A stretch of 52,622 nt of DNA from Desulfotignum sp. (GTDB taxonomy: Bacteria > Desulfobacterota > Desulfobacteria > Desulfobacterales > Desulfobacteraceae), in assembly GCA_021737695.1 (NCBI GenBank), contig JAIPDL010000019.1:1-52622 (forward strand). The letters run 5' to 3'. Below the pieces are notes generated by a model, which saw only the letters and a list, made by a program, of their open reading frames with translations, was not told the DNA's origin and made no database searches. Each line of letters starts with the position of its first letter. Position 1 is the first letter of the stretch. A program made the translations under genes and the position numbers. Shown here piece after piece: positions 21,490-41,393 of this stretch.

Positions 21490-22383
21490 TTACATCAATC
21501 GGTCTAATTTCATGGCAGGATGGGTCATCACTGTTTCCCAGATGTTTCTGACCGCTTTGGCAGCCGGGCAGGTATCATCATATTCCAACAGCGTCTGAAT
21601 CTGGATCATGGCTTTGGTAAAGACCGGATCAAACGGAATTTTCCCTGCCACCAGAATATCTTTTTCTCGGGCAATGGTTTCGATGGCCCGGGTCTGGTCC
21701 AGGTTCAGATCAAATTTATTGATGCACACCATGGCCGGGATCTTGAAGTGGGCGGCCAGTTCCCCCACCCGTTTCATGTCATGGATACCCGACACCGTGG
21801 GTTCTGCCACGATGAGAATGGCACTGGCCTGGCCGATGCTGGCAATGACCGGGCATCCGATGCCCGGAGGGCCGTCCGTGAGAATCAAATCAATATGTGC
21901 GTCTCTGGCCCGTTTTTTGGCCTGTTCCCTTACCAAGGCCACCAGCCGGCCGGAGTTTTCTTCGGCAATGCCTAACCGGGCGTGAACCATGGGACCGAAC
22001 CGGGTATGGGACACAAACCACTGGCCGCAGGTTTTCTGGGGAAAGTCAATGGCGGATTCCGGGCACATATCCACACAGACCCCGCAGCCCTCACAGTTCA
22101 AGGTATCCACGGTATATTCTCCCTGGGTTTCATCAATGGCATCGAACCGGCACAGTTCCAGACACGTGCCACAGCCCGTGCACCGGTCCGGGGCGATGAC
22201 GGCTTCGTTGCCGCCGACAAAATCATGGGTTTCCTGAACATCCGGGGCCATAATCAGGTGCAGGTCGGCTGCATCCACATCAGCATCACAGAGCATCAAT
22301 GAGGATTTAAGCCCTGCAAATGCGGCGGTCAGGCTGGTTTTGCCCGTGCCGCCTTTTCCACTCAATATCACCAGCTCTTTCAT
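21490..22383 (-). CDS. MinD/Mrp-type P-loop ATPase with inserted ferredoxin domain (second copy)
   Basis: 297 residues from the ATG at 22381-22383, which overlaps the upstream stop (ATGA); an in-frame GTG nine bases upstream is less likely. It has the deviant Walker A SGKGGTGKTSLT, an inserted two-cluster ferredoxin with CTGCGTCLELCRFDA and CEGCGVCVDMCPESA, then TDGPPGIGCPVIAS as Walker B region. Orthologues are encoded with orange protein in Desulfovibrio and form a complex with it. ATP hydrolysis probably drives metal-cluster transfer or assembly; the exact reaction is not known. Confidence 0.9.
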   Translation of the reverse strand: MKELVILSGKGGTGKTSLTAAFAGLKSSLMLCDADVDAADLHLIMAPDVQETHDFVGGNEAVIAPDRCTGCGTCLELCRFDAIDETQGEYTVDTLNCEGCGVCVDMCPESAIDFPQKTCGQWFVSHTRFGPMVHARLGIAEENSGRLVALVREQAKKRARDAHIDLILTDGPPGIGCPVIASIGQASAILIVAEPTVSGIHDMKRVGELAAHFKIPAMVCINKFDLNLDQTRAIETIAREKDILVAGKIPFDPVFTKAMIQIQTLLEYDDTCPAAKAVRNIWETVMTHPAMKLDRLM

Positions 22384-23243
22384 GGGGCACACTTTTTTTG
22401 ATCTGCCAGAAGACAGATTTTCTGATAAAGGGTTTGAAATTTTTCTTTGTAATCTTCCTGCTGGGCGATGATCAGATCGCCTTTGGAATAGGCCTGGGCA
22501 ATGGCCTTGTCATAGGGGATTTCCATGAGAACCGGCAGGTTTTTTTTTTCGGCATAGGCATATACGGCATCATCTCCCATGCCGGCCCGGTTGATGATCA
22601 GACCGTGGGGAATATTCAGCAGCCGCACGGTTTCCACGGCCAGTTTCAGGTCATTGAGTCCAAATGGGGTGGGTTCTGTGACCAGAACGACAAAATCCGT
22701 GTCTTTCATGGCCGCGATGACGGGACAGGATGTGCCGGGCGGGGCATCGATTAAAGTGATGCCTTGATCCGGAGCCCGGTGGGATTTGACCTGGCGGATC
22801 ACCGGCGGGACCATGACCTGGCCGATATCCAGCAATCCCTGGCCAAAATTCATGTCCGGCAGCGGCCCGGTGCCGGTTTCCACGGTGCCTAAAATCCGTT
22901 CTTTTTCCGTGACGGCATTTTCCGGACAGATGACCGTGCACCCGCCGCAGGAATGGCACAGTTCAGGAAACGTGACCACGGTGTTTGCAGTGACTGCAAT
23001 GGCATTGAACCGGCAGATATCCATACATTTTTTGCAGAATGTGCACCGGTCCAGATCGATTTTTGGCACGGGTGCAATCACTTTTTCCCGGGATTGGATT
23101 TCCGGGTGCAAAAATAAATGGAGGTTGGGTTCTTCCACATCACAATCCAGCACCGTGACCGGCTGATTCAATGAAGCGGCCAGATTGGCGGCCACCGTTG
23201 TCTTTCCGGTACCGCCTTTTCCGCTTGCAATGCTGATGATCAT
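22380..23243 (-). CDS. MinD/Mrp-type P-loop ATPase with inserted ferredoxin domain (first copy)
   Basis: 287 residues, a paralogue of the next gene: Walker A SGKGGTGKTTVA, ferredoxin motifs CTFCKKCMDICRFNA and CHSCGGCTVICPENA, then IDAPPGTSCPVIA. Tandem ferredoxin-bearing MinD genes are the standard core of orange-protein operons in anaerobes. AGAGGT precedes the ATG. Its stop overlaps the start of the second copy, so the pair is translated together and probably forms a heterodimer. Confidence 0.9.
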   Translation of the reverse strand: MIISIASGKGGTGKTTVAANLAASLNQPVTVLDCDVEEPNLHLFLHPEIQSREKVIAPVPKIDLDRCTFCKKCMDICRFNAIAVTANTVVTFPELCHSCGGCTVICPENAVTEKERILGTVETGTGPLPDMNFGQGLLDIGQVMVPPVIRQVKSHRAPDQGITLIDAPPGTSCPVIAAMKDTDFVVLVTEPTPFGLNDLKLAVETVRLLNIPHGLIINRAGMGDDAVYAYAEKKNLPVLMEIPYDKAIAQAYSKGDLIIAQQEDYKEKFQTLYQKICLLADQKKCAP

Positions 23244-23262
23244 TTATGATACCTCTTTTAAG

Positions 23263-23646
23263 TTACAATAGGTTCAGTTTTTTCAAGATGGCCACCAGTT
23301 TTTCTCCGGATTCAGCATCCGGGGCCGGTGGCAGCTGCATGAGTACGCCAAATCCTTCATACGTCTCATGAAATTCGTCTGCAGATAACGTGCTGACTGC
23401 GGCACAGCTGGTCATGGGACTTGTCATGATCACTTGCGCCAGCAGTTCCCGGCCGGTCATGTCTGCCAGGGTTTCGTCCGTGATCACCAGATCAATTTTT
23501 TCCTTTTTGTCCCCGGCCCGGGAGATACGTTCCAAAACGGATTTCCCCGTGTCGGTCCACTGAATATCCATTGGAGACTGCTGTAACACCCCTGCCATTT
23601 TTTCAAATGTCTGTTTGTCTTTTACCGCCAGTACCGCGTATATCAT
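23263..23646 (-). CDS. Degenerate receiver-like protein, first gene of the orange-protein-like operon
   Basis: 127 residues with the layout of a receiver domain. The candidate acceptor sits in LVITDETLADMTGREL, but the N-terminal acidic pair is replaced (VLAVKDKQ) and the conserved lysine loop reads LMQLPPAPDA. It is therefore unlikely to be phosphorylated normally and may be a pseudo-receiver that docks to a kinase or to the MinD proteins. AAGGA lies before the ATG. A sigma-54 promoter lies 70 bases upstream. Confidence 0.65.
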   Translation of the reverse strand: MIYAVLAVKDKQTFEKMAGVLQQSPMDIQWTDTGKSVLERISRAGDKKEKIDLVITDETLADMTGRELLAQVIMTSPMTSCAAVSTLSADEFHETYEGFGVLMQLPPAPDAESGEKLVAILKKLNLL

Positions 23647-23987: not shown

Positions 23988-24046
23988 TCAACCTAATAGT
24001 TCATTGTAACATATTTGATAGATCCTGAGCTAAGGGAGGTGTCTTG

Positions 24047-25345
24047 ATGTCAGATCCCAGCAAGCGTCCGGCGGATACGGGATCTGCCCGCGTCGGAACA
24101 CAGGAAAACAGGTCGCTGCACCCCAAAAAATCATGGACGATCCTGGTGATCGACGATGAACCCGATGTGCGGGATGTCATGGTCATCAGCCTTGAAGATG
24201 CCGGTTACAGGGCGCTTTCTGCGTCGGACGGTGAGTCCGGTCTTAAGCTGCTGGAAACCCGGGAACCTCAGATTCTCATCACGGACATCAAGATGCCGGG
24301 CATGAGCGGCCTGGAAGTGTTGAAAAAAGCCCACATGATTCGGCCTGAAACCCAGGTGATCGTCACCACGGGATTTGCAGACATCAAAAAAGCGATCACC
24401 GCGTTGCAGTACGATGCGTCCGATTTCATCACCAAACCCGTGGACGACACCACGTTGCACCTGGCCTTGAAACGGGCCATGGAGCGGTATGAAAATCAGA
24501 AGGAACTGGCGGATTATACCCGGCTTCTGGAACAGACCGTCCTGAATCAGGAAAAGATTCTGCACCAGGAAAAAATGATGTCTTTAGGCCGCCTGGCCGC
24601 CAGTATGGTCCATGAGATCAACAATCCGCTGTCCGGGATTCTGAATTATATCACGCTGATGATCCGGCTGGTGGAAAAACCGGGATGGGACGGTGCCGGT
24701 CAAAACCGGTTTAAAGAGTATCTGACCATTATTCACAAGGAAACCCGGCGCTGTGCCGACCTGGTTTCCGGACTCCTGCAGTTTTCCAGAAAATCCAGTC
24801 TTCAATTCGGGCCCGTGGATATCTGCGAGCTGATCGAGTACAGCCGGATGCTGTGCAATCACAGGCTGGAACTGGCCAATATTCTCCTGGAAATTACCTG
24901 TGATCCGACTATTCCCAAGGTGTCGGGCGATATCAATCAATTGCAGCAATGTGTGATCAATCTGATTTTCAATGCCATTGACGCGATTGAAGGAAAGCAT
25001 CCGGCAGCATTGGACAGTATGAAAGAATCGTCTCCCACGGCCCGGCCTCTGGGCCGGATCCGGATCAAGGCAGATATCGAGGATGCGGATCATCAGGTAT
25101 GTATCCGGGTGGAAGATGACGGCAAAGGCATCTTTCCCGGGGACCTGCCCCGCATTTTTGAGCCGTTTTTCACCACAAAACAGGACGGTCACGGTGTGGG
25201 CTTAGGCTTGTCCACGGTGTACGGCATCATCGAACACCACAACGGCATCATTGCCGTGGACAGTGAGCCGGGACAGGGCGCCTGTTTCACCATCCGATTG
25301 CCTGCGTCGGAAGAAACCACAAAAACAAAGGAATTAAATCCATGA
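24047..25345 (+). CDS. Receiver-histidine kinase, first gene of the Hdr operon
   Basis: 432 residues from the ATG at 24047, which follows the strong site AAGGGAGG; an in-frame TTG sits just before it. The receiver (30-150) has IDDEPD, phospho-acceptor Asp80 in LITDIKMPG, and Lys130. The kinase core has His189 in SMVHEINNPL, N-box LIFNAIDAI, DDGKGIF, FEPFFTTK and GVGLGLSTV. It is soluble with no sensor, so it is likely an intermediate in a phosphorelay. It overlaps the giant hdrA gene by 4 bases (ATGA). The receiver of the downstream HdrA is a candidate target (inference). Confidence 0.92.
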   Translation: MSDPSKRPADTGSARVGTQENRSLHPKKSWTILVIDDEPDVRDVMVISLEDAGYRALSASDGESGLKLLETREPQILITDIKMPGMSGLEVLKKAHMIRPETQVIVTTGFADIKKAITALQYDASDFITKPVDDTTLHLALKRAMERYENQKELADYTRLLEQTVLNQEKILHQEKMMSLGRLAASMVHEINNPLSGILNYITLMIRLVEKPGWDGAGQNRFKEYLTIIHKETRRCADLVSGLLQFSRKSSLQFGPVDICELIEYSRMLCNHRLELANILLEITCDPTIPKVSGDINQLQQCVINLIFNAIDAIEGKHPAALDSMKESSPTARPLGRIRIKADIEDADHQVCIRVEDDGKGIFPGDLPRIFEPFFTTKQDGHGVGLGLSTVYGIIEHHNGIIAVDSEPGQGACFTIRLPASEETTKTKELNP

Positions 25346-28300
25346 TACCTGACTATTTGCCGATACGTGTGGGGGTTTACATCTGTCACTGCGGCGTGAA
25401 TATTGCCGGAAAAGTGGATGTGGCGGATGTCAGTGAATGGGCCGGCTCCCTGCCCCATGTGGTCGTTTCCAGGGACTACAAATTCATGTGTTCCGAGCCG
25501 GGCCAGGCCATGATTGAAACAGACATCAAAGAATATGGACTGAACCGGGTGGTGGTGGCCTCCTGCTCCCCAAGGCTGCATGGGAAAACCTTTATGGAAA
25601 CCTGCCGGAGAGCCGGGATCAATCCGTATTATTTTAACATGGCTTCCGTCAGAGAACAGGTGTCCTGGGTGACCAAAGACGGGGACCGGGCCACCCGCAA
25701 GGCCCGGCGCCTGGTGGCGGCGGCCGTGAGCCGGGTGGCCTTTCATCAGCCGCTGACCACGGGCCTGTCCGAGGTGCATCCGGATGTGGCCGTCATCGGC
25801 GGGGGCATTGCCGGGATGCAGGCGGCCATCGATATCGGAAACGCCGGGCTTACGGTGCATCTCATTGAAAAAGACAGTACCATTGGCGGTCACATGCTCC
25901 AGTTTGACAAAACCTTTCCCACCCTGGACTGTGCCGCCTGCATCGGTACGCCCAAGATGGTGGAGGTGGCCCAGAACTCAAATATCGATCTGCACACCTT
26001 CAGCCGGGTGACGGAAGTGACCGGGTTTGTCGGCAATTACACGCTGGATATCACGGAAAAACCCCGGTATGTGAACCCGGATCTGTGCACGGGATGCGGG
26101 GAGTGCGCCACGGTATGTCCGGTGTCCATCCCCAGTGCCTGGGATATGGGCTTGTCGAACCGAAAAGCCATTGGCAGAAGTTTTCCCCAGGCCATTCCCA
26201 TCACGTTTCAGATCGAAAAAAATCAGACCGCCCCGTGTACCCGGACCTGTCCGGCCGGCATCAATGTGCAGGGATATGTGCAGCTGGCAAAACAGGAAAA
26301 ATATGATCAGGCCCTGGCATTGATCATGGAAAAAGCCCCGTTTCCCGGGGTCCTGGGCCGGGTATGCCCCCATCCCTGTGAAACCGCCTGTGCCCGGGGG
26401 GAAACAGACAAACCCGTGGCCATCCGCCTGCTCAAACGGTATGTATCTGACATGGCCGGGCCCGATGCCCGTCAGATTCCCGATATTGTTGATAAACAAG
26501 AAAAAATCGCGGTGATCGGGGCCGGACCGGCCGGACTGACTGCGGCCTATTTTCTGCGCCTCAAAGGATACGGGGTCACGGTGTTTGACGCATCAAGTCA
26601 GGCCGGGGGCATGCTTCGCACCGGGATTCCTGCGTATCGTCTGCCCAGGGATGTGCTGGATCAGGAAATCCAGCACATCCTGGACCATGGCATCGACCTG
26701 AAACTGAATGCCTGCCTGGGAAAAGAGGTGGACCTGCCAGGTCTGAAAGAACAGGGATTTCGGGCCGTGTACCTGGCTACCGGGGCCCATCGGTCCCTGA
26801 AGCTGGGTCTGGAAGAAGAAGACACTCTTTCCGGGGTCATGGATGCAGTCACGTTTCTAAGACAGATCAATTCAGGAGAACAGACTGCCTGTCACGGCAG
26901 CGTCCTGGTGGTGGGCGGCGGCAATGTGGCGATCGATGCGGCCCGGTGCGCCCGGCGGATTCCCGGATGTGAAGTCACCCTGGTCTACCGCCGCACCCGG
27001 GAACAGATGCCGGCCTATGCCGATGAAATTCAAGGGGCCCTTGAGGAGGGCATCACCCTCCTGGAGCTGGCCGGTCCGGTCCGGCTGGAAGAAGATCAGG
27101 GCACACTCACACAGGTGGTGTGCCTGAAAAATGAACTGGGACCGCCGGATGCTTCCGGACGGCGGCGGCCCGTGCCTGTGGAAGGATCGGAATTTGTCCT
27201 GCCCTGTGATACCTTGATCCCGGCCATCGGCCAGTATCCGGATGACCTGGGCATGGATGGACTGCCCGGGATCGAGATCACGGGCCGAAACCGGATCAAG
27301 GTGGATGGCATCACGTTTCAGACCGGGGAACCCGGGGTGTTTGCCGGCGGGGACCTGGTCCTGGGGCCGGCCACCGTGGTCCAGGCCATCGGCCATGGGC
27401 GGACCGCGGCTGACTATATCCATGAATTTATCCAAAATCCGGCCCGGTTTGACAAAGGGGCCGATACGGGCTTGGCAGATACGTCCGCTACCGGACCGGC
27501 AGACACCACTGGAGCTGACTGGCACACGGCTGACAAGGCAGCTTCTTTGTCTGAAAACAGATCCGAAAAAAGGGCTTTGAACGCGTTCACATCCGAGCCC
27601 CCGGGGGCCGTTCCCCGGGCCGAACCGGCCTGGATGGACCCGGATCAACGGATATCCGGGTTTGACGAGGTGGAAGCCTGCCTCACCCCGGATCAGGCCC
27701 TGGCAGAGGCGGGCCGGTGTCTCAACTGCGGGATCTGCTGCGAATGCAAAGCGTGTGTGGCCGCCTGTGAACGGGATGCCATCGACCATGACATGAAAGA
27801 AAAACACTATCAGATCCAGGTGGGCAGCATTATTCTGGCCACGGGGTATGACACCCTGGACCCGACGGCCATGACCCGGTTCGGTTACGGCCGGTACCCC
27901 AATGTGTATACGGCCCTGGAGTTCGAGCGATTAAGCAATGCCACGGGCCCCACGGGCGGACAGATCCTGATGCGGGACCATGACCGGACATTTACACGGC
28001 CTCCCAAATCCGTGGCCATTGTGCATTGTGTGGGGAGCCGGGATGTGAATTTCCATGAATACTGCTCCCGGGTCTGCTGCATGTACGCGTTGAAATACAC
28101 CCACCTGATCAAGGAGAAAGTGGGCCATGACACCCAGGTGTATGATTTTTATATTGATATGCGCTGTTTCGGCAAAGGGTATGAAGAGTTTTACAACCGG
28201 TGCCAGCAGGAAGGGACCGTTTTCATCCGGGGCAAGGTGGCGCAGATCACGCATCAGCCCGGAGTTGACGGGGAAACGGAGAAACTGGTGGCAGTAGCCG

Positions 28301-28836
28301 AAGATACCCTGATGGGAGAGGTGATTGAAGTGCCCGTGGACATGGTGGTGTTGTGTACAGCCATCCAGGCCCGGCATGATGCGGGAGAGATCGGCCATGT
28401 CCTGGGACTCAACCATGGGGCGGACGGATTTTTCCTGGAGGAACATCCCAAACTCGGGCCTGTGAATACGTCCACGGAAGGTGTGTTTTTGAGCGGGTGC
28501 TGCCAGAAACCCATGGACATCCCGGACACCGTGTCCCAGGCATCCGGGGCTGCGGCCAAGTCATTGTCCCTGGCGGCACGGGGCCAGGTGGAGATTTCTC
28601 CCACCGTGGCCAGCATTGATCCGGATATCTGTGCCGGATGTCAATTGTGTCTGGTGCTGTGCCCCTATGGGGCCATTGAATTTGATGAAGACCGGCAGGT
28701 GTCCGTGGTCAATGAAGCCGTGTGCAAAGGATGTGGTTCCTGTTCCGGGGCGTGCCCCAGCGGTGCGGCCGTGAGCCGTCATTTTACCCGAAAACAGATG
28801 TTTGCCGAAATCAGCGGTGTGCTGGCTCAGTTGTGA
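25342..28836 (+). CDS. Giant HdrA with inserted GltD/NfnB-like NAD(P)H oxidoreductase module
   Basis: 1164 residues. Order: HdrA N-terminal region with CHCG at 15-18; FAD site VIGGGIAG (151-158); TLDCAACIGTPKM (194-206); ferredoxin cysteines CTGCGECATVCP (249-260). Then a complete GltD-like module (about 295-700) with CTRTCPAGINVQGY, CPHPCETACARG, its own FAD site VIGAGPAGLT (391-400) and NAD(P)H site VVGGGNVAID (523-532). A proline/threonine-rich linker (705-765) follows, a cysteine cluster (793-809), the HdrA signature CVGSRD...YCSRVCCM, and two C-terminal [4Fe-4S] sites. HdrA carries the bifurcating flavin. The inserted module would let this one use NAD(P)H. Both parts are intact and in frame. 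Confidence 0.93.
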   Translation: MIPDYLPIRVGVYICHCGVNIAGKVDVADVSEWAGSLPHVVVSRDYKFMCSEPGQAMIETDIKEYGLNRVVVASCSPRLHGKTFMETCRRAGINPYYFNMASVREQVSWVTKDGDRATRKARRLVAAAVSRVAFHQPLTTGLSEVHPDVAVIGGGIAGMQAAIDIGNAGLTVHLIEKDSTIGGHMLQFDKTFPTLDCAACIGTPKMVEVAQNSNIDLHTFSRVTEVTGFVGNYTLDITEKPRYVNPDLCTGCGECATVCPVSIPSAWDMGLSNRKAIGRSFPQAIPITFQIEKNQTAPCTRTCPAGINVQGYVQLAKQEKYDQALALIMEKAPFPGVLGRVCPHPCETACARGETDKPVAIRLLKRYVSDMAGPDARQIPDIVDKQEKIAVIGAGPAGLTAAYFLRLKGYGVTVFDASSQAGGMLRTGIPAYRLPRDVLDQEIQHILDHGIDLKLNACLGKEVDLPGLKEQGFRAVYLATGAHRSLKLGLEEEDTLSGVMDAVTFLRQINSGEQTACHGSVLVVGGGNVAIDAARCARRIPGCEVTLVYRRTREQMPAYADEIQGALEEGITLLELAGPVRLEEDQGTLTQVVCLKNELGPPDASGRRRPVPVEGSEFVLPCDTLIPAIGQYPDDLGMDGLPGIEITGRNRIKVDGITFQTGEPGVFAGGDLVLGPATVVQAIGHGRTAADYIHEFIQNPARFDKGADTGLADTSATGPADTTGADWHTADKAASLSENRSEKRALNAFTSEPPGAVPRAEPAWMDPDQRISGFDEVEACLTPDQALAEAGRCLNCGICCECKACVAACERDAIDHDMKEKHYQIQVGSIILATGYDTLDPTAMTRFGYGRYPNVYTALEFERLSNATGPTGGQILMRDHDRTFTRPPKSVAIVHCVGSRDVNFHEYCSRVCCMYALKYTHLIKEKVGHDTQVYDFYIDMRCFGKGYEEFYNRCQQEGTVFIRGKVAQITHQPGVDGETEKLVAVAEDTLMGEVIEVPVDMVVLCTAIQARHDAGEIGHVLGLNHGADGFFLEEHPKLGPVNTSTEGVFLSGCCQKPMDIPDTVSQASGAAAKSLSLAARGQVEISPTVASIDPDICAGCQLCLVLCPYGAIEFDEDRQVSVVNEAVCKGCGSCSGACPSGAAVSRHFTRKQMFAEISGVLAQL

Positions 28837-28915
28837 ATCTGCCGGTATTCTTGCCAACGACCATTATAGACTGTTTGATTATTTGATTGTTTGACCTTTT
28901 CTACAGGAGGACCCC

Positions 28916-29398
28916 ATGACCCAGACCGTGATGGAACCATCACAGGCAACCCCCTCTAAAATCCCGTCTCTGACCGGAGAGGCATTCGAACCCGTGCTCA
29001 TTGCATTTGTGTGCAACTGGTGCACCTACACGGCCGCAGACCTGGCCGGCACCTCCCGCCTGTCCTATCCGGACAATGTCAGACTGGTGCGGGTCATGTG
29101 TACGGGCATGGTGGATCCCCAGTACGTGATCAAGGCGTTTCTGGAAGGGGCCGATGCCGTGCTGGTGTCCGGTTGTCACCCCGGAGACTGCCACTATATC
29201 AATGGGAATTATAAAGCCCGGCGCAGGATCCTGTTGCTGAAACAGATTCTGCCCCGGTTCGGCATTGACGCGAAAAGGCTTCGGCTGACCTGGATCGGGG
29301 CCAGCGACGGGATCGAATTTGCCCAGACCATGACAAGGTTTGTGAAAGATATCAAAGAGATAGGGCCGTGTCAGGCCCGGCAGCAACCGGTCATCTGA
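28916..29398 (+). CDS. mvhD: MvhD-type iron-sulfur subunit
   Basis: 160 residues. The MvhD/FlpD pattern is clear: FVCNWCTY (C33, C36), RVMCTGMVDPQ (C62) and SGCHPGDCHY (C87, C92), which bind a [2Fe-2S] cluster. In methanogens MvhD passes electrons from hydrogenase or formate dehydrogenase to HdrA; in sulfate reducers it links HdrA to NADH or formate modules. Strong AGGAGG site. It lies 79 bases after hdrA; that gap contains only AT-rich imperfect TTTGATT repeats and no terminator. Confidence 0.93.
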   Translation: MTQTVMEPSQATPSKIPSLTGEAFEPVLIAFVCNWCTYTAADLAGTSRLSYPDNVRLVRVMCTGMVDPQYVIKAFLEGADAVLVSGCHPGDCHYINGNYKARRRILLLKQILPRFGIDAKRLRLTWIGASDGIEFAQTMTRFVKDIKEIGPCQARQQPVI

Positions 29399-29436
29399 AC
29401 ACCAGGCACCCATTGTCCAATACCACAGGAGAAATT

Positions 29437-30597
29437 ATGATTGCATCCATTCAAACCAAAAACCAGTCCATCACCCGGACCCTTCAGGATTTTTTTGCCG
29501 ACCTGCTTAAAACCGGGGCCGTGGATGCCGTGCTGGTGCCGTCCCGGATTTCAGAATCCTTGTATGTCAAACCCTGCCTGATCACTTCTGCCGATCAGAT
29601 GGACCCGACCGTGCCTTTGGGGCCGGGCTTTTTTGTCAATGCCGGCCCCATGGTGTCCCGGCTGACCCGGACAAAGGCCGGTGCCACCATCGGGGTGTGG
29701 CTTCGTCCCTGTGAAGTCCGGGCCTTTGTGGAACTGACCAAACTCAGACAGGGGGGCAGAGAAGAGGTGGTCATTCTGAGCATGGACTGCCCCATGGCCC
29801 TGTCCCGCAAAGACTATGAAGACTGGGCCGCCCAGGGGGATGAGGGGCTCGGAGACGTGGATACATGGATTCACACCGTATATCAGAAACCCGTGACACA
29901 GGTGGATGCATGGCCCGTGGCCCGGGCATGTCAAGTGTGCGAAAGCCCATATCCCGTGAACGCGGATGTGTCTGTGATGCTTTATGGCGCAGACCTGGAC
30001 AAAGAGATTCCGGTGCGGGCCGATACGGAAAAAGGAGAAAAACTGCTGGCCGCCCTGGACCTGACAGACGGGGGTCAGGAACCGGAGCCGCGCAACGCCC
30101 TGCTGGCGAATCTGACGGCGGACCGCACGGCGGCATTTCAGGCCCTGGACGAGGAAATGCGCGTCCGGACCGGCAGCATTGATGCGTTGAACCGGTTTTT
30201 CAGCGCCTGCGTCAACTGCCACAACTGCCGGAGCGTGTGCCCGGCCTGTTACTGCAAGGAATGCGTGTTCAACACGGATGCAGTGGCATACGCCCCGACC
30301 CAGTACCTTTCCTGGGCCGATAAATGGGGTCAGGTTCCGATGCCCAATGATACCGTGTTTTTTCACCTGACCCGCCTGGCCCATATCGGGTGCACCTGTG
30401 TGGGGTGCGGCCAGTGTACCCTGGCCTGTCCCAGTCAGATTCCCGTGGCAGACCTGTTCATCAGTGTCACCCGGAACGTTCGGAATGCCTTTGACTATGT
30501 ACCGGGCAGGGATGATGCGGAACCGCTGCCCCTGTCAGTGTTTCAGGAATCGGAATTCACCGATATCGTGGGGATGGGAAACAAGGAGGTCACATGA
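29437..30597 (+). CDS. FrhB/FdhB-like iron-sulfur flavoprotein
   Basis: 386 residues from the ATG at 29437, after CAGGAGA; the open frame extends upstream into mvhD and is ignored. The N-terminal and middle parts (about 1-250) resemble the F420-type beta subunit family, with WLRPCEVRAFVELTKLRQG typical of it. The C-terminal third has two iron-sulfur motifs: a cluster of cysteines from CVNCHNC to CYCKEC (about 258-277) and CTCVGCGQCTLACPSQIP (about 319-336). Such FdhB-like proteins connect HdrA complexes to formate or another donor. No catalytic formate dehydrogenase subunit is encoded here. It overlaps the next gene by 4 bases. Confidence 0.85.
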   Translation: MIASIQTKNQSITRTLQDFFADLLKTGAVDAVLVPSRISESLYVKPCLITSADQMDPTVPLGPGFFVNAGPMVSRLTRTKAGATIGVWLRPCEVRAFVELTKLRQGGREEVVILSMDCPMALSRKDYEDWAAQGDEGLGDVDTWIHTVYQKPVTQVDAWPVARACQVCESPYPVNADVSVMLYGADLDKEIPVRADTEKGEKLLAALDLTDGGQEPEPRNALLANLTADRTAAFQALDEEMRVRTGSIDALNRFFSACVNCHNCRSVCPACYCKECVFNTDAVAYAPTQYLSWADKWGQVPMPNDTVFFHLTRLAHIGCTCVGCGQCTLACPSQIPVADLFISVTRNVRNAFDYVPGRDDAEPLPLSVFQESEFTDIVGMGNKEVT

Positions 30598-33467
30598 CAG
30601 ATCAAATCGGCAGAACCCTGGTGATCGGCGGCGGTATTTCAGGGATCCGGGCATCCCTGGATCTGGCCCAGTCAGGTTTTCAGGTCCTGTTGCTGGAACA
30701 ATCGGACCGGGTGGGGGGACTCTTGTCCCAGCTGGACACCCAGTTTCCCACCTCCACCTGTGGCATGTGCCGGATGCTGCCCATGATGGACCGGGATCAT
30801 GGGGACCCCCAGTGCCTGCGCCGGGGGCTTGCCCATGACAACATCGAGATCTGTGTGTCCACGGACCTGATCTCCCTGACAGGGGAGCCGGGTAATTTTA
30901 CGGTGTCTTTCATCGATCAAACGGATGGGGGCCGGCAGGAATGTCCCGTGCTGGTGGTGGATGATGAAAAAATCGTCAGAGATTCCATGAAAGAATGGCT
31001 CATGGAAGAAGGGTATCCCGTTCAGACGGCAGCGTCAGCTGCCAAGGCCCTGGAACTTCTGGAAACAGGGGATTTCAAGGCAATGCTCACGGATATCAAA
31101 ATGCCGGGTATGGACGGGGTGACCCTGTTGACCCGGGCCAGAGAGATCCAGCCGGACCTGGCCGTGGTGATGATGACTGCGTATGCGGCAGTGGACACGG
31201 CCGTGGAAGCCATGAAACAGGGGGCGCTTGATTATCTGGTCAAACCCTTTGATCCGGATGCAGTGCTTTTGATGGTGGACCGCATCTACAAAGATGCCGT
31301 GGCCAAAAATGCCCGGACCGATACGGTGGATGCCGTGATACTGGCAACGGGGGCCACTTTTTTTCACCCGGACCAGGGTATCAACGCGTATGGATACGGC
31401 CGGATTCCCGGCGTGGTCACGAACCTGGAATTTGAACGCATGCTCAGCCATGCCGGCCCGGGGGGCATGGATTTGACGCATCCTGTCACGGGCCGGCCCG
31501 TGACCCGGATCGCCTGGTTTCAATGTGTGGGGTCCAGAGATATCCAGACCGGTACCCCGTTTTGTTCTTCCACCTGCTGCATGATTGCCGTCAAGCAGAG
31601 CCTGCTGGCGAAAACCATGTACCCCCAGGTGACTGAGGCCTGTGTGTTTTATATGGATCTGCGCACATGGGGCAAGGCATCGGATGCATATGCCCGGCAG
31701 GCGGAAACAGCGGGGGTCCGGTTTGTTCGGGCCCGGGTCCATTCACTGGCCCCGGGCTCAAAAGAAACGGACGGGGCCATTCCTGTGGTGTGGATGGACC
31801 CGTCCGGAGAACGGAACCAATCTTTGTTCGATCTGGTGGTCCTGGCCCCGGGACAGCATCCGGATGCGTTTTTGACGGGGTTTGTCAAAGACCAGGAACT
31901 GGCTGCGGATGACTGGGGATTTGTCCGGCCGGAACCTTTTTTACCCGCACACACCAGCCGGCCGGGGATTTTTGCCTGCGGCAGTGCCACGGGCCCCAAA
32001 GACATTCACGATTCCGTGACCGGGGCCACGGCGGCGGCCCTGTCCGCCATGCAGGTGATGGCCGGGGCCGGCCGGCATCTGGTTCAGAATTCAGAACCAG
32101 CGGAGTCACCGGACCAGCAGGCGGCCGGCATATCTCTTTTCCCCGGAGCCCTGGTCATCGGCGGAGGAATCGCCGGCATGACCGCAGCGTTGGCCATTGC
32201 GGATCAGGGGTTTGAGGTGGATCTGGTGGAAAAAACCGATCAGCTCGGGGGGAATCTGGTGTGGCTACAGAACGGCATCCAGGGGGCGGACGATTTTCTG
32301 GAACAGCAGATGGCCGCGGTCCAGGCCCATGACCGGATCCGGGTTCACACCCGCACCTGTGTGGCAGAAACAACGGGCCGCCCCGGTCGATGGGTCACCC
32401 GGCTGACACCGGTTGCGGACGCTGGGAAGATCACGGATGCCCAAATCCTGGAACAGGAGTCTGGCCCATCGCCTGAAGACAGATCGGCCAGACAGTCCGC
32501 CGGAGTCCCGGTCCGGCACGGGGTGGTGGTGCTGGCCGTGGGCGGGGCTGAAGCCGGGTCTGACACGGATGGACTGGATCAGAAATCCGGCATCTATACC
32601 CAGCAGCAGTTTCAGCTCCTCTTGGACGGCAATGACATCGATTCAGGTTCGCCCCTTCAGGTGGCCTTGTTTCAATGCCACGGCAGCCGGGAACCCGGCC
32701 GGGAATACTGTTCCCGGGTCTGCTGCCCCCGGTCTCTGGACCAGGCCCTGCGGTTGAAAACCCTGAATCCGGACACCCGGGTGGTGATTTTCTACCGGGA
32801 CATGATGACCCCGGGCCTGACCGAGGCCGATTATACGGAAGCCAGAAAAAAAGGGGTGGTGTTTGTGCCCTATGAGCCCGGTAACGCGCCAAACCTGGCT
32901 GCGGATGATACCGGGTGCCAAGTGACCTGGACAGACCCGATTTTGGGGCGGGCCATGGAGATGGATGCAGATTACGTGGTGTTGGCCAAAGGCATCCGGT
33001 CCAGCCTGTCCAAGGATCTGGCACGCATGTTCGGGGCCGACGTGGACGGGTCCGGATTCTTTGACCAGGCCGATATCAAGTGGCGGCCCGTGGAAGCCAT
33101 GGATCCCCGGGTCCTGGCCTGCGGCATCTGTCTGGAACCCGGAAGCCTGGCCCTGACGCTGGCCTCGGCCCGGGCCGCCGCAGCCAAGGCTGTATCCCTG
33201 CTGGGCCGGCAGACCTTTTTCCCGGGTCAGGACACTGCCCGGGTCAGGAGTGCCTTCTGCAGCCTGTGTCAGATCTGTATTGACGCGTGTCCGTTCAATG
33301 CCCGGTTCATTGATCCGGAAACCCGCACACTGAAGGTGGATCCTCTGGCCTGTCAGGGCTGCGGCATCTGTGCGGCTGCCTGTCCGTCCGGGGCTGCCGT
33401 GGTGGCGGGCCGGTCCCTGGCACCCATGATGAAAACCATTCATGCCGCGTTAAACACGCCGTTATAA
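30594..33467 (+). CDS. Tandem HdrA with an inserted response-regulator receiver domain
   Basis: 957 residues. The first HdrA unit begins with FAD site VIGGGISG (10-17) and STCGMCRMLP (54-63). At about 118-235 (30945-31299) a complete receiver domain is inserted: VVDDEK (121-126), phospho-acceptor Asp167 in LTDIKMPGMDG (codon 31092-31094), switch Thr195, and Lys217 in VKPFD. All catalytic residues are present. HdrA sequence resumes with VILATGATFFHP and QCVGSRD...STCCM. A second HdrA unit starts near 516 (VIGGGIAGMTAAL) with QCHGSRE...SRVCCP, then two C-terminal [4Fe-4S] motifs, CSLCQICIDACP and CQGCGICAAACP. The receiver occupies the place where HdrA usually holds a ferredoxin insert. Phosphorylation would be expected to change electron transfer (inference). 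Confidence 0.93.
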   Translation: MTDQIGRTLVIGGGISGIRASLDLAQSGFQVLLLEQSDRVGGLLSQLDTQFPTSTCGMCRMLPMMDRDHGDPQCLRRGLAHDNIEICVSTDLISLTGEPGNFTVSFIDQTDGGRQECPVLVVDDEKIVRDSMKEWLMEEGYPVQTAASAAKALELLETGDFKAMLTDIKMPGMDGVTLLTRAREIQPDLAVVMMTAYAAVDTAVEAMKQGALDYLVKPFDPDAVLLMVDRIYKDAVAKNARTDTVDAVILATGATFFHPDQGINAYGYGRIPGVVTNLEFERMLSHAGPGGMDLTHPVTGRPVTRIAWFQCVGSRDIQTGTPFCSSTCCMIAVKQSLLAKTMYPQVTEACVFYMDLRTWGKASDAYARQAETAGVRFVRARVHSLAPGSKETDGAIPVVWMDPSGERNQSLFDLVVLAPGQHPDAFLTGFVKDQELAADDWGFVRPEPFLPAHTSRPGIFACGSATGPKDIHDSVTGATAAALSAMQVMAGAGRHLVQNSEPAESPDQQAAGISLFPGALVIGGGIAGMTAALAIADQGFEVDLVEKTDQLGGNLVWLQNGIQGADDFLEQQMAAVQAHDRIRVHTRTCVAETTGRPGRWVTRLTPVADAGKITDAQILEQESGPSPEDRSARQSAGVPVRHGVVVLAVGGAEAGSDTDGLDQKSGIYTQQQFQLLLDGNDIDSGSPLQVALFQCHGSREPGREYCSRVCCPRSLDQALRLKTLNPDTRVVIFYRDMMTPGLTEADYTEARKKGVVFVPYEPGNAPNLAADDTGCQVTWTDPILGRAMEMDADYVVLAKGIRSSLSKDLARMFGADVDGSGFFDQADIKWRPVEAMDPRVLACGICLEPGSLALTLASARAAAAKAVSLLGRQTFFPGQDTARVRSAFCSLCQICIDACPFNARFIDPETRTLKVDPLACQGCGICAAACPSGAAVVAGRSLAPMMKTIHAALNTPL

Positions 33468-33477
33468 AGGAGTGAGT

Positions 33478-34047
33478 ATGCACCTGACAGACATACGCGA
33501 AAAACTGGCGGACCGGCCGGACCTGACCCGGCACCTGGCACAGGTCAAGGAGCAGATGGCCACCTGCATTCAGTGCGGGACCTGTTCAGGCTCCTGTCCC
33601 AATGCCGGATTCATGGATATGACGCCCCGGCGCATGTGGCGGGCCGTGCTGGCCGACCGGTTGGACCTGGTGTTTTCCAGCCAGACATTCATGCTGTGTG
33701 CCAGCTGTTATGTGTGTACCCTGCGCTGCCCCCGGGGACTGCCTTTGACCGATGCCATGGCCGCACTCAAGCAGGTGGCGTTTGCCCTGGATCTGGACCG
33801 GTTCAAGCGGTCCACACGGTTCTACCGGGCATTTATGGACAATATCCGTCAATACGGCCGGGTCCGGGAAACCGAACTGATGGCCCGGTATTTTCTGGCC
33901 GTCAAAGACCCCCGGGTGCCCATGTCATACACGGGCATGGGCATCAAACTCATGGCAAAACATAAACTGCACCCGCATTTTCCCACCCTGGGACCGGGCC
34001 GGCTGGGGCCGCTGTTTGAACGGGCAACGCAACAACAGGAGCAATGA
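33478..34047 (+). CDS. hdrC: Heterodisulfide reductase subunit C-like protein
   Basis: 189 residues from the ATG at 33478; AAAGGAG ends just before it and an in-frame GTG at 33472 is part of that site. Two [4Fe-4S] motifs are present: CIQCGTCSGSC (C30, C33, C36, C40) and CASCYVCTLRC (C74, C77, C80, C84). The length and helical C-terminus match HdrC, which carries electrons from HdrA to HdrB. No membrane spans. hdrB follows directly. Confidence 0.93.
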   Translation: MHLTDIREKLADRPDLTRHLAQVKEQMATCIQCGTCSGSCPNAGFMDMTPRRMWRAVLADRLDLVFSSQTFMLCASCYVCTLRCPRGLPLTDAMAALKQVAFALDLDRFKRSTRFYRAFMDNIRQYGRVRETELMARYFLAVKDPRVPMSYTGMGIKLMAKHKLHPHFPTLGPGRLGPLFERATQQQEQ

Positions 34048-34048
34048 C

Positions 34049-34891
34049 ATGGACTATCTGTATTATCCGGGCTGCTCCCTGGAAGGCACAGCCAGCGAAT
34101 ATGACCTTTCCTGCCGGGAACTGTTCAAGACCCTGGGAGACCATCTCACAGACATCCCGGACTGGACCTGCTGCGGTGCCACGGCAGCCCAGTGCGTGGA
34201 CGCGTTTCTTTCCGTGGTGCTGCCGGCCCGGAATCTGGCCCTGGCGGAAAAAACAGATACCGGCCTGGATGTGCTGGTGCCTTGCAGCGCCTGTTACCTG
34301 AACCTGAAAAAAGCCCGGCAGGATCTGCTGGAAAACAGTGCCCTGCAGGCTCGGGTGAACCAGGTTCTGAAGCCGGACGAACTGGCGGTTAACGCCGCCG
34401 TGCGGGTCCGGCATCTCCTGGATGTGCTGAGCCGGGATGGGGCCGTGGGCCGGGTGGCTGAACTGGCGGAAAATCGCATGAAAGGATTCGTGGTTGCGCC
34501 ATATTACGGATGTCAGTGTCTGCGGCCTTTTGCGGAGTTCGATGATCCGGAACAGCCCCGGTCCATGGATGCCCTGATCCGGGCCACGGGGGCGGAGGTG
34601 CTGGCATGGGATATGGGAGGGGTTTGCTGCGGGGCTTCCACGGCCACCACCAAACCGGAAGTGGGGAAAAAACTGGTGGGCCGGATTCTGGATCAGGCAA
34701 AAGATGCCCATGCCGTGGTGACCGTATGCCCCATGTGCCAGATGAACCTGGAGCGGTTCCAGCCCCGGCCCGTGCCGGTCCTGTATCTGCCGCAGTTTCT
34801 GGGGCTGGCCCTGGGACTGTCCGGCAAGTCTCTGGGCTGCAATATGAATCTGTCCGATATCAAATCGGTCCTGTCCCGGGTGGCTTCATGA
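34049..34891 (+). CDS. hdrB: Heterodisulfide reductase subunit B-like protein
   Basis: 280 residues from the ATG at 34049, one base after the hdrC stop. Two CCG domains are complete: C9, C41-C42-Gly, C79, C82 in the first; C155, C157, C193-C194-Gly, C227, C230 in the second. In methanogen HdrB these bind two noncubane [4Fe-4S] clusters that reduce the disulfide. In a sulfate reducer the substrate is not CoM-S-S-CoB and may be the DsrC trisulfide or another thiol pair (inference). Its stop overlaps the start of the haem kinase gene (ATGA). Confidence 0.93.
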   Translation: MDYLYYPGCSLEGTASEYDLSCRELFKTLGDHLTDIPDWTCCGATAAQCVDAFLSVVLPARNLALAEKTDTGLDVLVPCSACYLNLKKARQDLLENSALQARVNQVLKPDELAVNAAVRVRHLLDVLSRDGAVGRVAELAENRMKGFVVAPYYGCQCLRPFAEFDDPEQPRSMDALIRATGAEVLAWDMGGVCCGASTATTKPEVGKKLVGRILDQAKDAHAVVTVCPMCQMNLERFQPRPVPVLYLPQFLGLALGLSGKSLGCNMNLSDIKSVLSRVAS

Positions 34892-37188
34892 ACCGTTTGT
34901 TGGATTATTTCCGGCACAGCCTGGTGTTCCGGCTCATTTTCATTGTCAGCCTGACAGTGGTTCTGTCCATTTCGTTGTGGGCCTTTGTCAATGTCAGAAA
35001 TTTCAAGGCCCGGAACATGGAAACCCATATCGCTTCCACAGACCGGCTGAGCAATTCCATCAAACTGGGAACCCATTATGCCATGATGCTCAATTCCCGG
35101 GACGACATCAATCAGATCATCAACAATATCGCCCGCCAGCCCGGAATTGAAAACATCCGCATCTACAACAAGGAAGGCCAGATCAAATTCACCAACCAGC
35201 CCCATGAGGTGGAGCAGTATGTGGATATCAAGGCCGTGGCCTGTGATATCTGCCATAAAATGGATCCGGCCCCCTCAAAAATTTCGCTGGAGGAACGGAC
35301 CCGAATCTTTCAGTCTCCAGACGGCCACCGGCTTTTAGGCGTTGTGCAGCCCATCCGCAATGACCCGGGGTGCGCCACCAGCGACTGCCATTTTCATTCC
35401 GAAGATCAGACCATTTTAGGCGCCCTGGATGTGGTGGTGTCCTTGAAAGAAACGGATGCCCAGGTGGTGAAAATGGAGCAGGGGGTTTTCAGCCTGGCGT
35501 TTTTCACGATCCTGATCACCTCGGTCATCATTTTTCTCACCACATTGTTTTTTGTGAAAAAACCCATCATCAAGCTGGTGGAAGGCACCCGCCGCATTGC
35601 CAGCGGTGATTACGAGGCAGATATCGATATCGGCCGGGCCCATGAAATTCAACCCTTAGGCAAAGCAATCCAGCAGATGGGCAAGAAAATCGGGGCCCAT
35701 CAGGCGGCGCTTAAAAAACAGAAAAACGAATACCAGGCATTGTTTGACAATGCGCCCTGCATGATCGCCGTGCAGGATAAAAATTTCCGGCTGATCCAGT
35801 ACAACCGGGCGTTCAAGGAAAGGTTTGATCCCCGGCCCGGGGATTACTGCTATTCGGTCTACAAAGGACTGGACCATCAATGCCCGGACTGTCCCGTGGA
35901 AAAAACCTTTGCCGACGGCCGGTCCCACTATGGGGAGACGGAAGGGGTCGGCCGCAAGGGTCAGAAAAAGCACTGGATCTTCATCACTGCGCCCATGTTC
36001 GATGAAAACGGGGACATTGTGGCAGGCATGGAAATGAGTATCGATATCACCCAGCGCAGACACCTGGAACAGGATTTGAAAAAATCGGAAGAAAAATACC
36101 ATGCTATTTTCAACAATATTTTCAATCCTGTGTTTGTGGTGGATCAGGAGACGCTTAACATTCTGGATTGCAATATCAAAGCCATGGACCTGTATCATAC
36201 GGGCGGAAACACCCTGGCGGGAAAATTGTTCAGCGATTTTTTCCCCCGGGAGGATCAGGCGGATATGATCCGGCAGGTGAAATCCAGAAAAGAGATCTCC
36301 AAGGTCCAGCATATCAAGGCGGACGGCAGAAAAATCGATGTGGACATGTGGGTGGCCCCGGCCCAGTACTCGGGTCAGAACGTGTTTCTGATCACCATCA
36401 ATGACATCACCCAGCGTCTGGAAACCGAGCAGCACCTGCTCCATGCCAGCAAAATGGCCACGTTGGGCGAAATGTCCACGGGCATCGCCCATGAATTGAA
36501 CCAGCCCTTGTCCGTGATTAAATCTTCGGCCAGTTTCTGCCTGCGAAAGATCCATAATCAGGAACCTGTTTCAGAAGAGATTTTCCACAAACTGATCGGA
36601 AAAATCGACATTAATGTGGACCGGGCCGATAAAATCATCCAGCACATGCGCCAGTTTGCCAGAAAATCCGATATTAAGCTGGTGAGAACCCGGATCAATG
36701 ACGTGATCCAGCAGACCTTTGATATGCTCAATCAGCAGTTGAAAATCCGGGGAATCCAGGTATTATGGGAGAAAAAAGATGGGTTGCCCGAGATTCTGGC
36801 GGACCCGGACCGCCTGGAACAGGTGTTCATCAACCTGGTGATGAATGCCAAGGATGCCATTGAAGCCAAATGGGAAGCCCGGGGAAGCGAAGATGACGGC
36901 AAAGACCGGATTGTCATCCACACGTTTGTGGCCAATGACAAGGTGGTTGTTCAGGTGAGCGACACGGGCATCGGCATCCGGAAAGAGGCAAAAGACCGTT
37001 TGTTTGAACCGTTTTTCACCACCAAGGAAGTGGGCAAGGGCACGGGCCTGGGCCTGTCCATCTCCTATGGGATCGTCAAAGACTGCAAGGGAGATATTCA
37101 GGTGGCCACCCCCCCGGACGGCGGCGCAAAATTCACCCTGATATTTCCGGTTCCCGAAGAAACAAACGAAGATATCGAATATGCCTGA
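34888..37188 (+). CDS. Membrane histidine kinase with periplasmic c-type haem motifs
   Basis: 766 residues from the ATG at 34888, translationally coupled to hdrB; the frame is open upstream but overlaps hdrB. TM1 (about 12-34), a periplasmic domain (35-200), TM2 (202-223), HAMP, two PAS domains (about 280-392 and 400-512), HisKA with His535 in STGIAHELNQPL, and HATPase (about 640-755). The periplasmic domain has CDICH at 119-123, a standard haem c site, and CATSDCH at 162-168, a CX4CH site. The first PAS has cysteines 321, 332 and 335. It looks like a redox-sensing kinase fed by periplasmic cytochromes, placed in the same operon as the Hdr complex. Confidence 0.92.
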   Translation: MNRLLDYFRHSLVFRLIFIVSLTVVLSISLWAFVNVRNFKARNMETHIASTDRLSNSIKLGTHYAMMLNSRDDINQIINNIARQPGIENIRIYNKEGQIKFTNQPHEVEQYVDIKAVACDICHKMDPAPSKISLEERTRIFQSPDGHRLLGVVQPIRNDPGCATSDCHFHSEDQTILGALDVVVSLKETDAQVVKMEQGVFSLAFFTILITSVIIFLTTLFFVKKPIIKLVEGTRRIASGDYEADIDIGRAHEIQPLGKAIQQMGKKIGAHQAALKKQKNEYQALFDNAPCMIAVQDKNFRLIQYNRAFKERFDPRPGDYCYSVYKGLDHQCPDCPVEKTFADGRSHYGETEGVGRKGQKKHWIFITAPMFDENGDIVAGMEMSIDITQRRHLEQDLKKSEEKYHAIFNNIFNPVFVVDQETLNILDCNIKAMDLYHTGGNTLAGKLFSDFFPREDQADMIRQVKSRKEISKVQHIKADGRKIDVDMWVAPAQYSGQNVFLITINDITQRLETEQHLLHASKMATLGEMSTGIAHELNQPLSVIKSSASFCLRKIHNQEPVSEEIFHKLIGKIDINVDRADKIIQHMRQFARKSDIKLVRTRINDVIQQTFDMLNQQLKIRGIQVLWEKKDGLPEILADPDRLEQVFINLVMNAKDAIEAKWEARGSEDDGKDRIVIHTFVANDKVVVQVSDTGIGIRKEAKDRLFEPFFTTKEVGKGTGLGLSISYGIVKDCKGDIQVATPPDGGAKFTLIFPVPEETNEDIEYA

Positions 37189-37200
37189 AAGGAGGCGTTC

Positions 37201-38328
37201 ATGGACAAGACACCCTTCACCATTCTGATCGTGGACGATGAAGAAGATATCAGAGAGGTGCTTGAGATCGCGCTCATGGACATGGGGCATCAGGTGCTTT
37301 TGGCCCCGGACGGAAAAAAAGCCCTGGCACTGTTTGACGAGCACCATCCCGACATTGTGATCACGGATATCAAAATGCCGGTCATGGGCGGTATTGAACT
37401 GCTCAAACAGGTGAAACGCCGGTCTCCGGACACTCAGGTGATCATGATCACGGGACACGGGGACATGGATCTCACCATTGACAGCCTGAAATTCGGGGCC
37501 ACGGATTTCATTACCAAACCCGTGAACGTGGACATCCTGGAAATCGCTGTGACCAAGGCCGTGGATCAGCTCATTGCCCAGCAGAAACTGGTGGAATATA
37601 CCCAGAAACTGGAACTGCTGGTGCTGGAAAAATCCAAACTCACGGATCATTTATCCTCTTTGGGCCTGATGCTGGGCACGGTATCCCATAACATTAAAGG
37701 TTTGCTCACCAACCTGGACGGCGGGTTGTTCATCGCCCGGTCCGGCCTGGAAAAAAAGAATTTTGACGATATTGCCGAGGGCATGGATCTGCTGTCCCAG
37801 GCCGTGGAAAAAATCAAGCAGCTGATCATGGATATTCTGCTGTATTCCAAGGAACGGTCCATGGATATTCAGCCCGTGCCCCTGGATTCGTTTATCCAAG
37901 ACATTCAGGAAACCATGAAAATGAAACTGGCCAGCCATCCCATCGATTTTCAGGTGGTTTCCGACAACGCCCCGGCCACCCTGAACCTGGACCCGTCTTC
38001 CATGATGTCCGCGCTGGTGAATATGCTGGATAATGCCGTGGATGCCTGTGTGGAAGACAAAGACCCGGCCGGTCACGTCATTTGCCTGACCATCGAAGAA
38101 AAGGGCGATCACCTGGTGATCAAGGTTCAGGATGACGGGTGCGGCATGGACGTTGAAACCAAGTCCAGGATCTTTGACCTGTTTTTTTCTTCCAAACAGG
38201 TCAAGGGCACGGGATTCGGCCTGTTCATCGCCCGAAACATCATCGCCCAGCACAAGGGGACCATCACCGTGGAATCCGTCAAACGCCGGGGCACGACCTT
38301 CACGATTTTTCTGCCGCTGACTCCGTGA
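37201..38328 (+). CDS. Receiver-histidine kinase, last gene of the Hdr operon
   Basis: 375 residues after a strong AAAGGAGG site, 12 bases downstream of the haem kinase. The receiver (5-125) has VDDEED, phospho-acceptor Asp56 in VITDIKMPVMGG, and Lys106. The kinase part has an unusual H-box GTVSHNIKGLLTNL with His163, N-box MLDNAVDACV, DDGCGMD and GTGFGLFIA. It is soluble, like the first gene of the operon, and could receive phosphate from the haem kinase and pass it on. The operon seems to end here, since the next gene is convergent; no terminator is clear in the 74-base gap. Confidence 0.92.
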   Translation: MDKTPFTILIVDDEEDIREVLEIALMDMGHQVLLAPDGKKALALFDEHHPDIVITDIKMPVMGGIELLKQVKRRSPDTQVIMITGHGDMDLTIDSLKFGATDFITKPVNVDILEIAVTKAVDQLIAQQKLVEYTQKLELLVLEKSKLTDHLSSLGLMLGTVSHNIKGLLTNLDGGLFIARSGLEKKNFDDIAEGMDLLSQAVEKIKQLIMDILLYSKERSMDIQPVPLDSFIQDIQETMKMKLASHPIDFQVVSDNAPATLNLDPSSMMSALVNMLDNAVDACVEDKDPAGHVICLTIEEKGDHLVIKVQDDGCGMDVETKSRIFDLFFSSKQVKGTGFGLFIARNIIAQHKGTITVESVKRRGTTFTIFLPLTP

Positions 38329-41348: not shown

Positions 41349-41393
41349 GGCTTTGTATCATTTCTCATGAGAAAAAATTTTGGCATGGGATAC

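Follow-up and report, generated by a model that had tools for sequence, protein, structure and literature searches.

A receiver domain within the bifurcation-residue unit of an HdrA-type flavoprotein encoded beside histidine kinases in Desulfotignum

Architecture of HdrA-REC

At the energetic limit of anaerobic life, electrons are split or merged by complexes of the HdrA type. The 52,622-nucleotide stretch of Desulfotignum sp. DNA analysed here (contig JAIPDL010000019.1; the whole stretch is referred to as the window) encodes a tandem HdrA-type flavoprotein, HdrA-REC, which carries a response regulator receiver domain within its first unit. The gene lies in an operon with the order K0 - HdrL - MvhD - FdhB-like - HdrA-REC - HdrC - HdrB - K1 - K2 (24044-38328), where K0, K1 and K2 are histidine kinases. 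All features are listed in Table 1. In HdrABC, HdrA is the flavin and bifurcation subunit and the disulfide is reduced by HdrB, so that the wording of the original prediction, made from the DNA alone, which called HdrA-REC the catalytic subunit, was loose.

HdrA-REC consists of two flavoprotein units. The thioredoxin-reductase-like flavin adenine dinucleotide (FAD) domain is present, and both units contain the Cx10-12Cx3CC cluster motif; the signature cysteines that had been noted in the two units proved to be invariant in an alignment of 47 sequences. There is no N-terminal HdrA cluster domain, the protein starting at the FAD domain, and it falls below the curated NCBIfam HdrA/HdrA2 cut-off (449.6 bits against 1100 for NF040770).

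The receiver, which spans roughly residues 117-238, passes Pfam PF00072 with 103.5 bits (cut-off 30.2), and has all five residues of the phospho-site, namely D123, D124, D167, T195 and K217. It is complete and folded according to the predicted model and a fold match, and in the model the flavin-domain strand that comes next follows directly on its last helix. The insertion point is the site of the ferredoxin insert in solved HdrA chains. The complete in-frame receiver at the ferredoxin position, with its acidic pair, Asp167, Thr195 and Lys217, is thus as originally described, and the proposed structure prediction shows it to fold. Chance similarity is ruled out by the E value of 9e-30 and the fold match. 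A motif check found no inserted ferredoxin domain in the window HdrA-REC or in other short forms of the family, and reading of the sequences shows that the window protein also lacks the N-terminal-type middle segment that the long forms have.

Alignment to the HdrA of M. thermolithotrophicus (5odc), with positions counted by hand, places E281 and K334 of HdrA-REC at E356 and K409, residues that have been suggested to distinguish bifurcating proteins from those that do not bifurcate (PMC12054007). The pair is kept in 58/58 aligned HdrA-REC proteins, including the members with pseudo-receivers described below. Unit II of the window protein lacks the pair and has Q674 and D716 instead; the same Gln and Asp are found in locus L129, and of 38 long forms with intact receivers, 32 keep the unit II Glu and 35 keep the Lys. 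Since unit I keeps the Glu/Lys pair, the alignment puts the receiver in the unit that retains the bifurcation residues.

Distribution of receiver-bearing HdrA proteins

Of 7995 candidates scored in a protein search, 5849 reached E <= 0.001, and the best 120 of these were used. The search words were taken from the first 500 residues, which biases the result towards receiver-bearing relatives. A receiver was found in 119 of 121 sequences (the best 120 plus the window), the other two being fragments, and Asp, Asp, Asp, Thr and Lys are present at positions 123, 124, 167, 195 and 217 in all 119 (118 homologues and the window). A junction profile of ten rows, spanning the junction between HdrA and receiver, matched 9/13 genomes of the genus (E <= 1e-50), 161/389 genomes of the home class in 71 of its 148 genera (E <= 1e-45), and 14/395 genomes drawn from the phylum (E <= 1e-50). 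Of the 161 class genomes, 143 reach E <= 1e-75, and the remaining 18 include partial matches and proteins in which the receiver is joined to universal stress protein (USP) domains. What had been described as a single unusual case is therefore a widespread family. The same architecture in many independent genomes also rules out an assembly or sequencing artefact, which the original prediction had named among the outcomes that would refute it; we found nothing in its favour and regard its likelihood as negligible.

Typical members have about 1150 residues; in 103/119 of the same set, the receiver is immediately preceded by two ferredoxin motifs. Short forms without these motifs have 936-972 residues among the full-length short proteins. 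The idea that the receiver replaces the ferredoxin by design is ruled out, because long relatives carry both. In the window's genus, six genomes have short-form loci and three have long forms (L103, L109 and L110). This coexistence indicates that the ferredoxin insert was probably lost within the genus while the receiver was kept; in the short forms of the window and L129 the insert is gone, and the receiver and the kinases are retained.

Conservation of the receiver

In six out of six within-genus comparisons (five genomes), the receiver has a lower ratio of nonsynonymous to synonymous substitutions (dN/dS) than either the rest of unit I or unit II, with values of 0.08-0.19; it is under strong purifying selection. 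Across the clade with intact receivers (780 pairs), median identity is 0.62 for the receiver, 0.50 for the segment after it, 0.52 for unit II and 0.64 for the N-terminal FAD segment. When intact pairs were matched on the identity of the post-receiver segment, receiver identity was still 0.67 (232 pairs). In the pseudo-receiver clade (153 pairs), the receiver has the lowest identity of these four parts, 0.37 versus 0.58, 0.62 and 0.75.

A clade with degenerate receivers

This clade, family f50, appears to correspond to Desulfovibrionaceae, and the degenerate-receiver loci examined were L128 and L167-L183. The receiver is degenerate in 18/18 loci, all of which have lost the Thr. The second acidic residue has become non-acidic in 17/18; the other locus, L182, has Glu at this position and has lost the first acidic residue. 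The order of the Hdr core genes is the same, but where the home class has the kinases after hdrB, these loci have a universal stress protein gene. K0, K1 and K2 are absent nearby in 18/18 loci (about 10 kb fetched on each side).

The clade is a single monophyletic group on the HdrA tree. Midpoint rooting nests it among the intact clades, and outgroup rooting makes it the sister of all intact ones (ingroup support 0.86). The simpler reading is decay of a working receiver in this clade.

Kinase linkage

The neighbours of 39 intact loci and 18 f50 loci were compared over about 10 kb on each side, with K0, K1 and K2 classes set by score thresholds of our own choosing. The window itself was left out of the counts, as were L192 and L012, neither of which has a complete junction in a single frame, and L193, L203 and L125, which are on the same contigs as L001, L006 and L008. 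L009 and L022 are near-duplicates and were both counted, and the 86-locus set includes repeated views of the same genome. L190 and L191 were counted as lacking kinases, no upstream hdr genes being recognised there, perhaps owing to frameshifts; L126 was counted as lacking K1 despite a K1 N-terminal piece at the contig edge.

The five phospho-site residues are intact in 39/39 intact-clade loci. K1 and/or K2 is near 29 of these, and any of the three kinases near 33, compared to 0/18 in f50 (Fisher 4e-8, which is descriptive only because the f50 loci form one clade). The co-occurrence with kinases that the original prediction had proposed looking for is therefore present. Twenty intact loci were picked for their long contigs, of which 19 had a full junction and 17 were left after removal of two already-seen contigs; K1/K2 was found in 12/17 of these, and any of the three kinases in 14/17.

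Among the ten intact loci that have no K1/K2 within the fetched stretch, L195 has them about 11 kb downstream (L214). L119 (genome G135) and L120 (G349) have a K1-like and then a K2-type kinase upstream, on the same contig in G349; the G135 kinase contig ends in what seems to be the missing part of hdrL. At L190, L191 and L201 (G679, G705 and G611) the K1/K2 pair is elsewhere in the genome; the sole kinase at L188 (G622) and at L003 is of the K0 type, and L010 has none. Presence of K1 anywhere in the genome was rejected as a test, since it does not separate the clades, and we claim only local linkage. In six f50 genomes inspected, K1-like kinases lie apart from the Hdr operon. A K1 and K2-type pair is also found away from hdr genes in several genomes.

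A USP-receiver-USP protein is encoded beside some HdrA-REC operons (L003:15166-16485, minus strand; L007:2843-4033; L123:14207-15520). Its receiver is as close to the window receiver as are the HdrA receivers of those loci, and these kinases may have it as a further target. A receiver-less HdrA locus in the window's genome (L113:7273-10386, minus strand) is interrupted by a TGA in frame that probably encodes selenocysteine; a kinase, an NtrC-type regulator and a separate receiver protein are encoded next to it.

Other features of the operon

The listed start of K0 is TTG, with ATG one codon further on, and a K0 orthologue precedes hdrL in several relatives. The GltD-like NAD(P)H module of HdrL sits within HdrL's own ferredoxin insert, as judged by sequence and domain matches, and a motif check shows that HdrL retains the Glu/Lys pair. 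The true start of the FdhB/FrhB-like gene is probably the ATG near 29437. Genes overlap by ATGA at K0/hdrL, fdhB-like/hdrA and hdrB/K1, the likely K1 start (34888) lying within the hdrB stop. K0 and K2 carry receiver motifs, with their Thr read from the sequence, and H-box-like motifs; K2 has no Pfam HisKA match. No DNA-binding regulator was found by Pfam within the operon itself.

K1 may be a di-haem redox sensor kinase, having two conserved c-haem motifs. Both CxxCH and Cx3-4CH occur in 17 of 20 kinases that match the K1 N-terminus at at least 90 bits (two of the 20, L008 and L125, are the same contig); the other three are shorter kinases without the two motifs. The sensor model is of moderate quality (predicted local distance difference test 78, predicted template modelling score 0.58), and resembles the WalK sCache domain (4ywz) and, more weakly, the haem sensor GSU0935 (3b42). 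The match to sCache_heme PF21563 is 17.2 bits, under the cut-off of 27, with CxxCH present.

The divergent cluster of the window (20696-23646) also holds a short receiver-like protein of 127 residues, just under the Pfam cut-off, and L129 and L130 have similar short matches upstream of their operons.

Table 1. Positions of HdrA-REC, its domains and residues, and neighbouring features in the window
Feature	Position	Strand	Evidence or remark
HdrA-REC, tandem HdrA-type flavoprotein, receiver within unit I	30594..33467	+	957 residues; ATGA overlap with preceding gene
Receiver domain, residues 118-235	30945..31298	+	Pfam 119-228, E 9e-30; model and fold match
Receiver acceptor D167	31092-31094	+	
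E281	31434..31436	+	Aligns with E356 of M. thermolithotrophicus HdrA (5odc)
K334	31593..31595	+	Aligns with K409 of M. thermolithotrophicus HdrA (5odc)
Unit I cluster motif C311...C324...C328C329	31524..31580	+	Invariant, 47-sequence alignment
Unit II cluster motif C695...C706...C710C711	32676..32726	+	Invariant, 47-sequence alignment
C-terminal ferredoxin cysteines C889-C930, two 4Fe-4S motifs	33258..33383	+	Fer4_7; invariant, 47-sequence alignment
K0, cytosolic receiver-histidine kinase (REC + HisKA + HATPase_c)	24044..25345	+	Pfam; REC motifs and H-box
HdrL, HdrA with GltD-like NAD(P)H module	25342..28836	+	Pfam/NCBIfam; ATGA overlap with K0
MvhD/FlpD electron-transfer subunit	28916..29398	+	FlpD E 2.5e-52
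FdhB/FrhB-like iron-sulfur protein	29368..30597	+	FrhB_FdhB_C match weak, below cut-off; syntenic in relatives
HdrC	33472..34047	+	TIGR03290 E 4e-19, below its cut-off
HdrB, two CCG domains	34016..34891	+	CCG E 5e-20, two stretches
K1, membrane sensor histidine kinase, 766 residues	34888..37188	+	Transmembrane-sensor-transmembrane-HAMP-PAS-PAS-HisKA-HATPase; Pfam, motifs, model helices
K1 c-haem motifs CDICH (35242-35256) and CATSDCH (35371-35391)	35242..35391	+	
K2, receiver-histidine kinase, 375 residues	37201..38328	+	Pfam REC and HATPase_c; SHNIKG H-box-like motif
Divergent cluster	20696-23646	-	Two dinitrogenase-cofactor-like proteins, two MinD-type ATPases with ferredoxin domains
Four large hybrid sensor kinases, convergent to operon	38403-52407	-	PAS, Cache or SBP_bac_3 inputs
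RnfD/RnfC-like genes close to left end	4050-6298	-	Partial Rnf cluster

Interpretation

The best-supported reading of these sequences is direct control by phosphorylation of the flavin unit that holds the bifurcation residues, because the phospho-site is intact in every one of the 119 receivers, kinases are linked to the intact loci, and the degenerate clade is without these local kinases. The histidine kinases of the operon would phosphorylate the receiver at Asp167 and thereby switch electron flow through the flavin of the first unit, a reading to which we give a probability of roughly 0.57. The original suggestion of an enzyme switched by phosphorylation gains partial support on these grounds; that catalysis is controlled, as opposed to docking, is something we infer.

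K1 is predicted to sense the periplasmic redox state via c-haem, and together with the receiver-kinases K0 and K2 would set the phosphorylation state of the receiver. Phosphorylation would shift the receiver, and the shift would be passed via its last helix into the flavin-domain strand, so gating electron entry or exit at the flavin with E281/K334. In the long forms the receiver may guard the low-potential (ferredoxin) port. The short form has lost the clusters of this port, and so in the window protein the receiver would instead work on either the flavin or the contacts to HdrL, MvhD and HdrCB.

Several observations weigh against this reading. The operon kinases could act on other receivers. 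K1/K2 is missing from the fetched stretch at 10/39 intact loci, and 3/7 receiver-less HdrA loci in the window's kinase-rich genome have kinases nearby (L111, L113 and L115). In the f50 loci the acceptor column is still Asp in 13/18 and the Lys column Lys in 10/18; another, dissimilar kinase lies upstream in 13/18, mostly with an NtrC-type gene, and full-length K1-like kinases occur elsewhere in 10/18 genomes. As the clade is monophyletic, the joint lack of phospho-site and kinases is in effect one event, the direction of receiver change depends on which of the two disagreeing roots is used, and a receiver-only tree does not recover the clade. The pseudo-receivers are also still there as domains, and many of them have the acceptor Asp, from which it follows that the receiver domain has some role without the standard phospho-site.

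Retention of a degenerate receiver-like domain in all 18 Desulfovibrionaceae loci, implying a role for the fold itself, is what would be expected if the receiver were a docking, assembly or localisation module or a phosphate sink, with phosphorylation altering partners or place and not catalysis. We consider this unlikely, given that the insertion is inside the flavin domain and not terminal, and that the receiver is under strong purifying selection.

The direction of signalling could also be reversed, such that the Hdr complex is the sensor and its redox state or electron flux alters the receiver, which would dock on the kinases and report the change to them, with the output elsewhere. Judging by the conserved aspartate, Thr and Lys, phosphorylation matters, and enzyme-linked receivers are normally outputs, as in CheB. 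For these reasons we think the reverse direction distinctly unlikely, even with the N-terminal receivers of K0 and K2, the lack of a DNA-binding regulator in the operon, the NtrC-type regulators nearby in several relatives, and a second protein (USP-receiver-USP) whose receiver is equally close to that of the window. It is highly improbable that this is an ordinary fusion and neighbourhood, in which the operon is regulated by the kinases at the level of transcription and the receiver is carried along as a passenger in evolution: the genome is very rich in two-component genes (164 matches to HdrA-REC, most of those listed to the receiver part), but the phospho-site is fully conserved in the intact clade and decayed in one clade only.

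If phosphorylation control is correct, these bacteria would set electron flow directly by signalling, and not solely via changes in gene expression. A receiver in the flavin unit, with kinases in most of the sampled loci of the home class and its allies, would make post-translational control of flavin-based bifurcation directly testable, and the degenerate receiver in a related family would then be a natural contrast for such tests. More tentatively, and with odds that we would put against it, the ferredoxin insertion point of HdrA may be a socket for control or electron modules (in HdrL the GltD NAD(P)H module, and in HdrA, its partner, the receiver). Many sulfate reducers would then have a periplasmic haem-sensing kinase that signals through a phosphorelay to the bifurcating flavin and not to transcription, giving a redox-to-redox circuit that works within seconds and was lost once, in Desulfovibrionaceae, with decay of the receiver.

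Comparison with known systems

In CheB and in proteins annotated as fused response regulator/thioredoxin-disulfide reductase, the latter having a related flavoprotein fold, a receiver is joined to an enzyme in a terminal position. In HdrA-REC, by contrast, the receiver interrupts the flavin domain of an iron-sulfur enzyme of bifurcating type. A parallel is provided by bifurcating-type [FeFe]-hydrogenases with PAS or histidine kinase domains, which also have signalling domains on subunits tied to bifurcation (PMC11406978). These are sensor and kinase domains, however, with no receiver, and neither "receiver" nor "response regulator" occurs in the text available from that source. The sensor of K1 may be related to sCache_heme sensors (PMC12889525): it has CxxCH and Cache-like fold matches, but also a second Cx3-4CH motif, and its Pfam match is under the cut-off.

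Public records label proteins of this family "response regulator" or "Response regulator receiver protein", and the architecture is already annotated in databases but, within the literature searched, undiscussed. No description of a receiver in HdrA was found in the titles, abstracts and passages that were searched, most subscription papers and supplements being outside reach, and none is mentioned in the text available from PMC4046663 (on Desulfotignum phosphitoxidans), PMC6085437, PMC4053972 or PMC11406978. Two described proteins belong here. HdrA4 from locus VIII of Desulfobacterium autotrophicum HRM2 (PMC2702500) appears to be of the same operon family, with L201 as its locus; it has an intact receiver but is a long form with the ferredoxin insert, and "receiver" is absent from the main text of the genome paper (supplements were outside the search). 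HdlA5 of Desulfobacula toluolica (P0042) is of the same family, with a Response_reg match of E 1e-30; HdlA5BC was undetected by proteomics (PMC5109826).

Archaeal type II HdrA has two thioredoxin-reductase domains, like HdrA-REC, and type III has a GltD module at the ferredoxin site, like HdrL here (PMC12054007). The term "response regulator" is absent from the available text of that source, which mentions no receiver for the archaeal HdrA types. The HdrA of the methanogen HdrABC-MvhAGD complex (5odc, 8rvu) shares with HdrA-REC the FAD domains, the Cx10-12Cx3CC motif, the C-terminal ferredoxin and the unit I Glu/Lys pair, and the HdrB, HdrC and MvhD genes beside HdrA-REC correspond to partners in that complex. 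HdrA-REC differs from the methanogen protein in having tandem units, a receiver in place of the inserted ferredoxin, and no N-terminal cluster domain.

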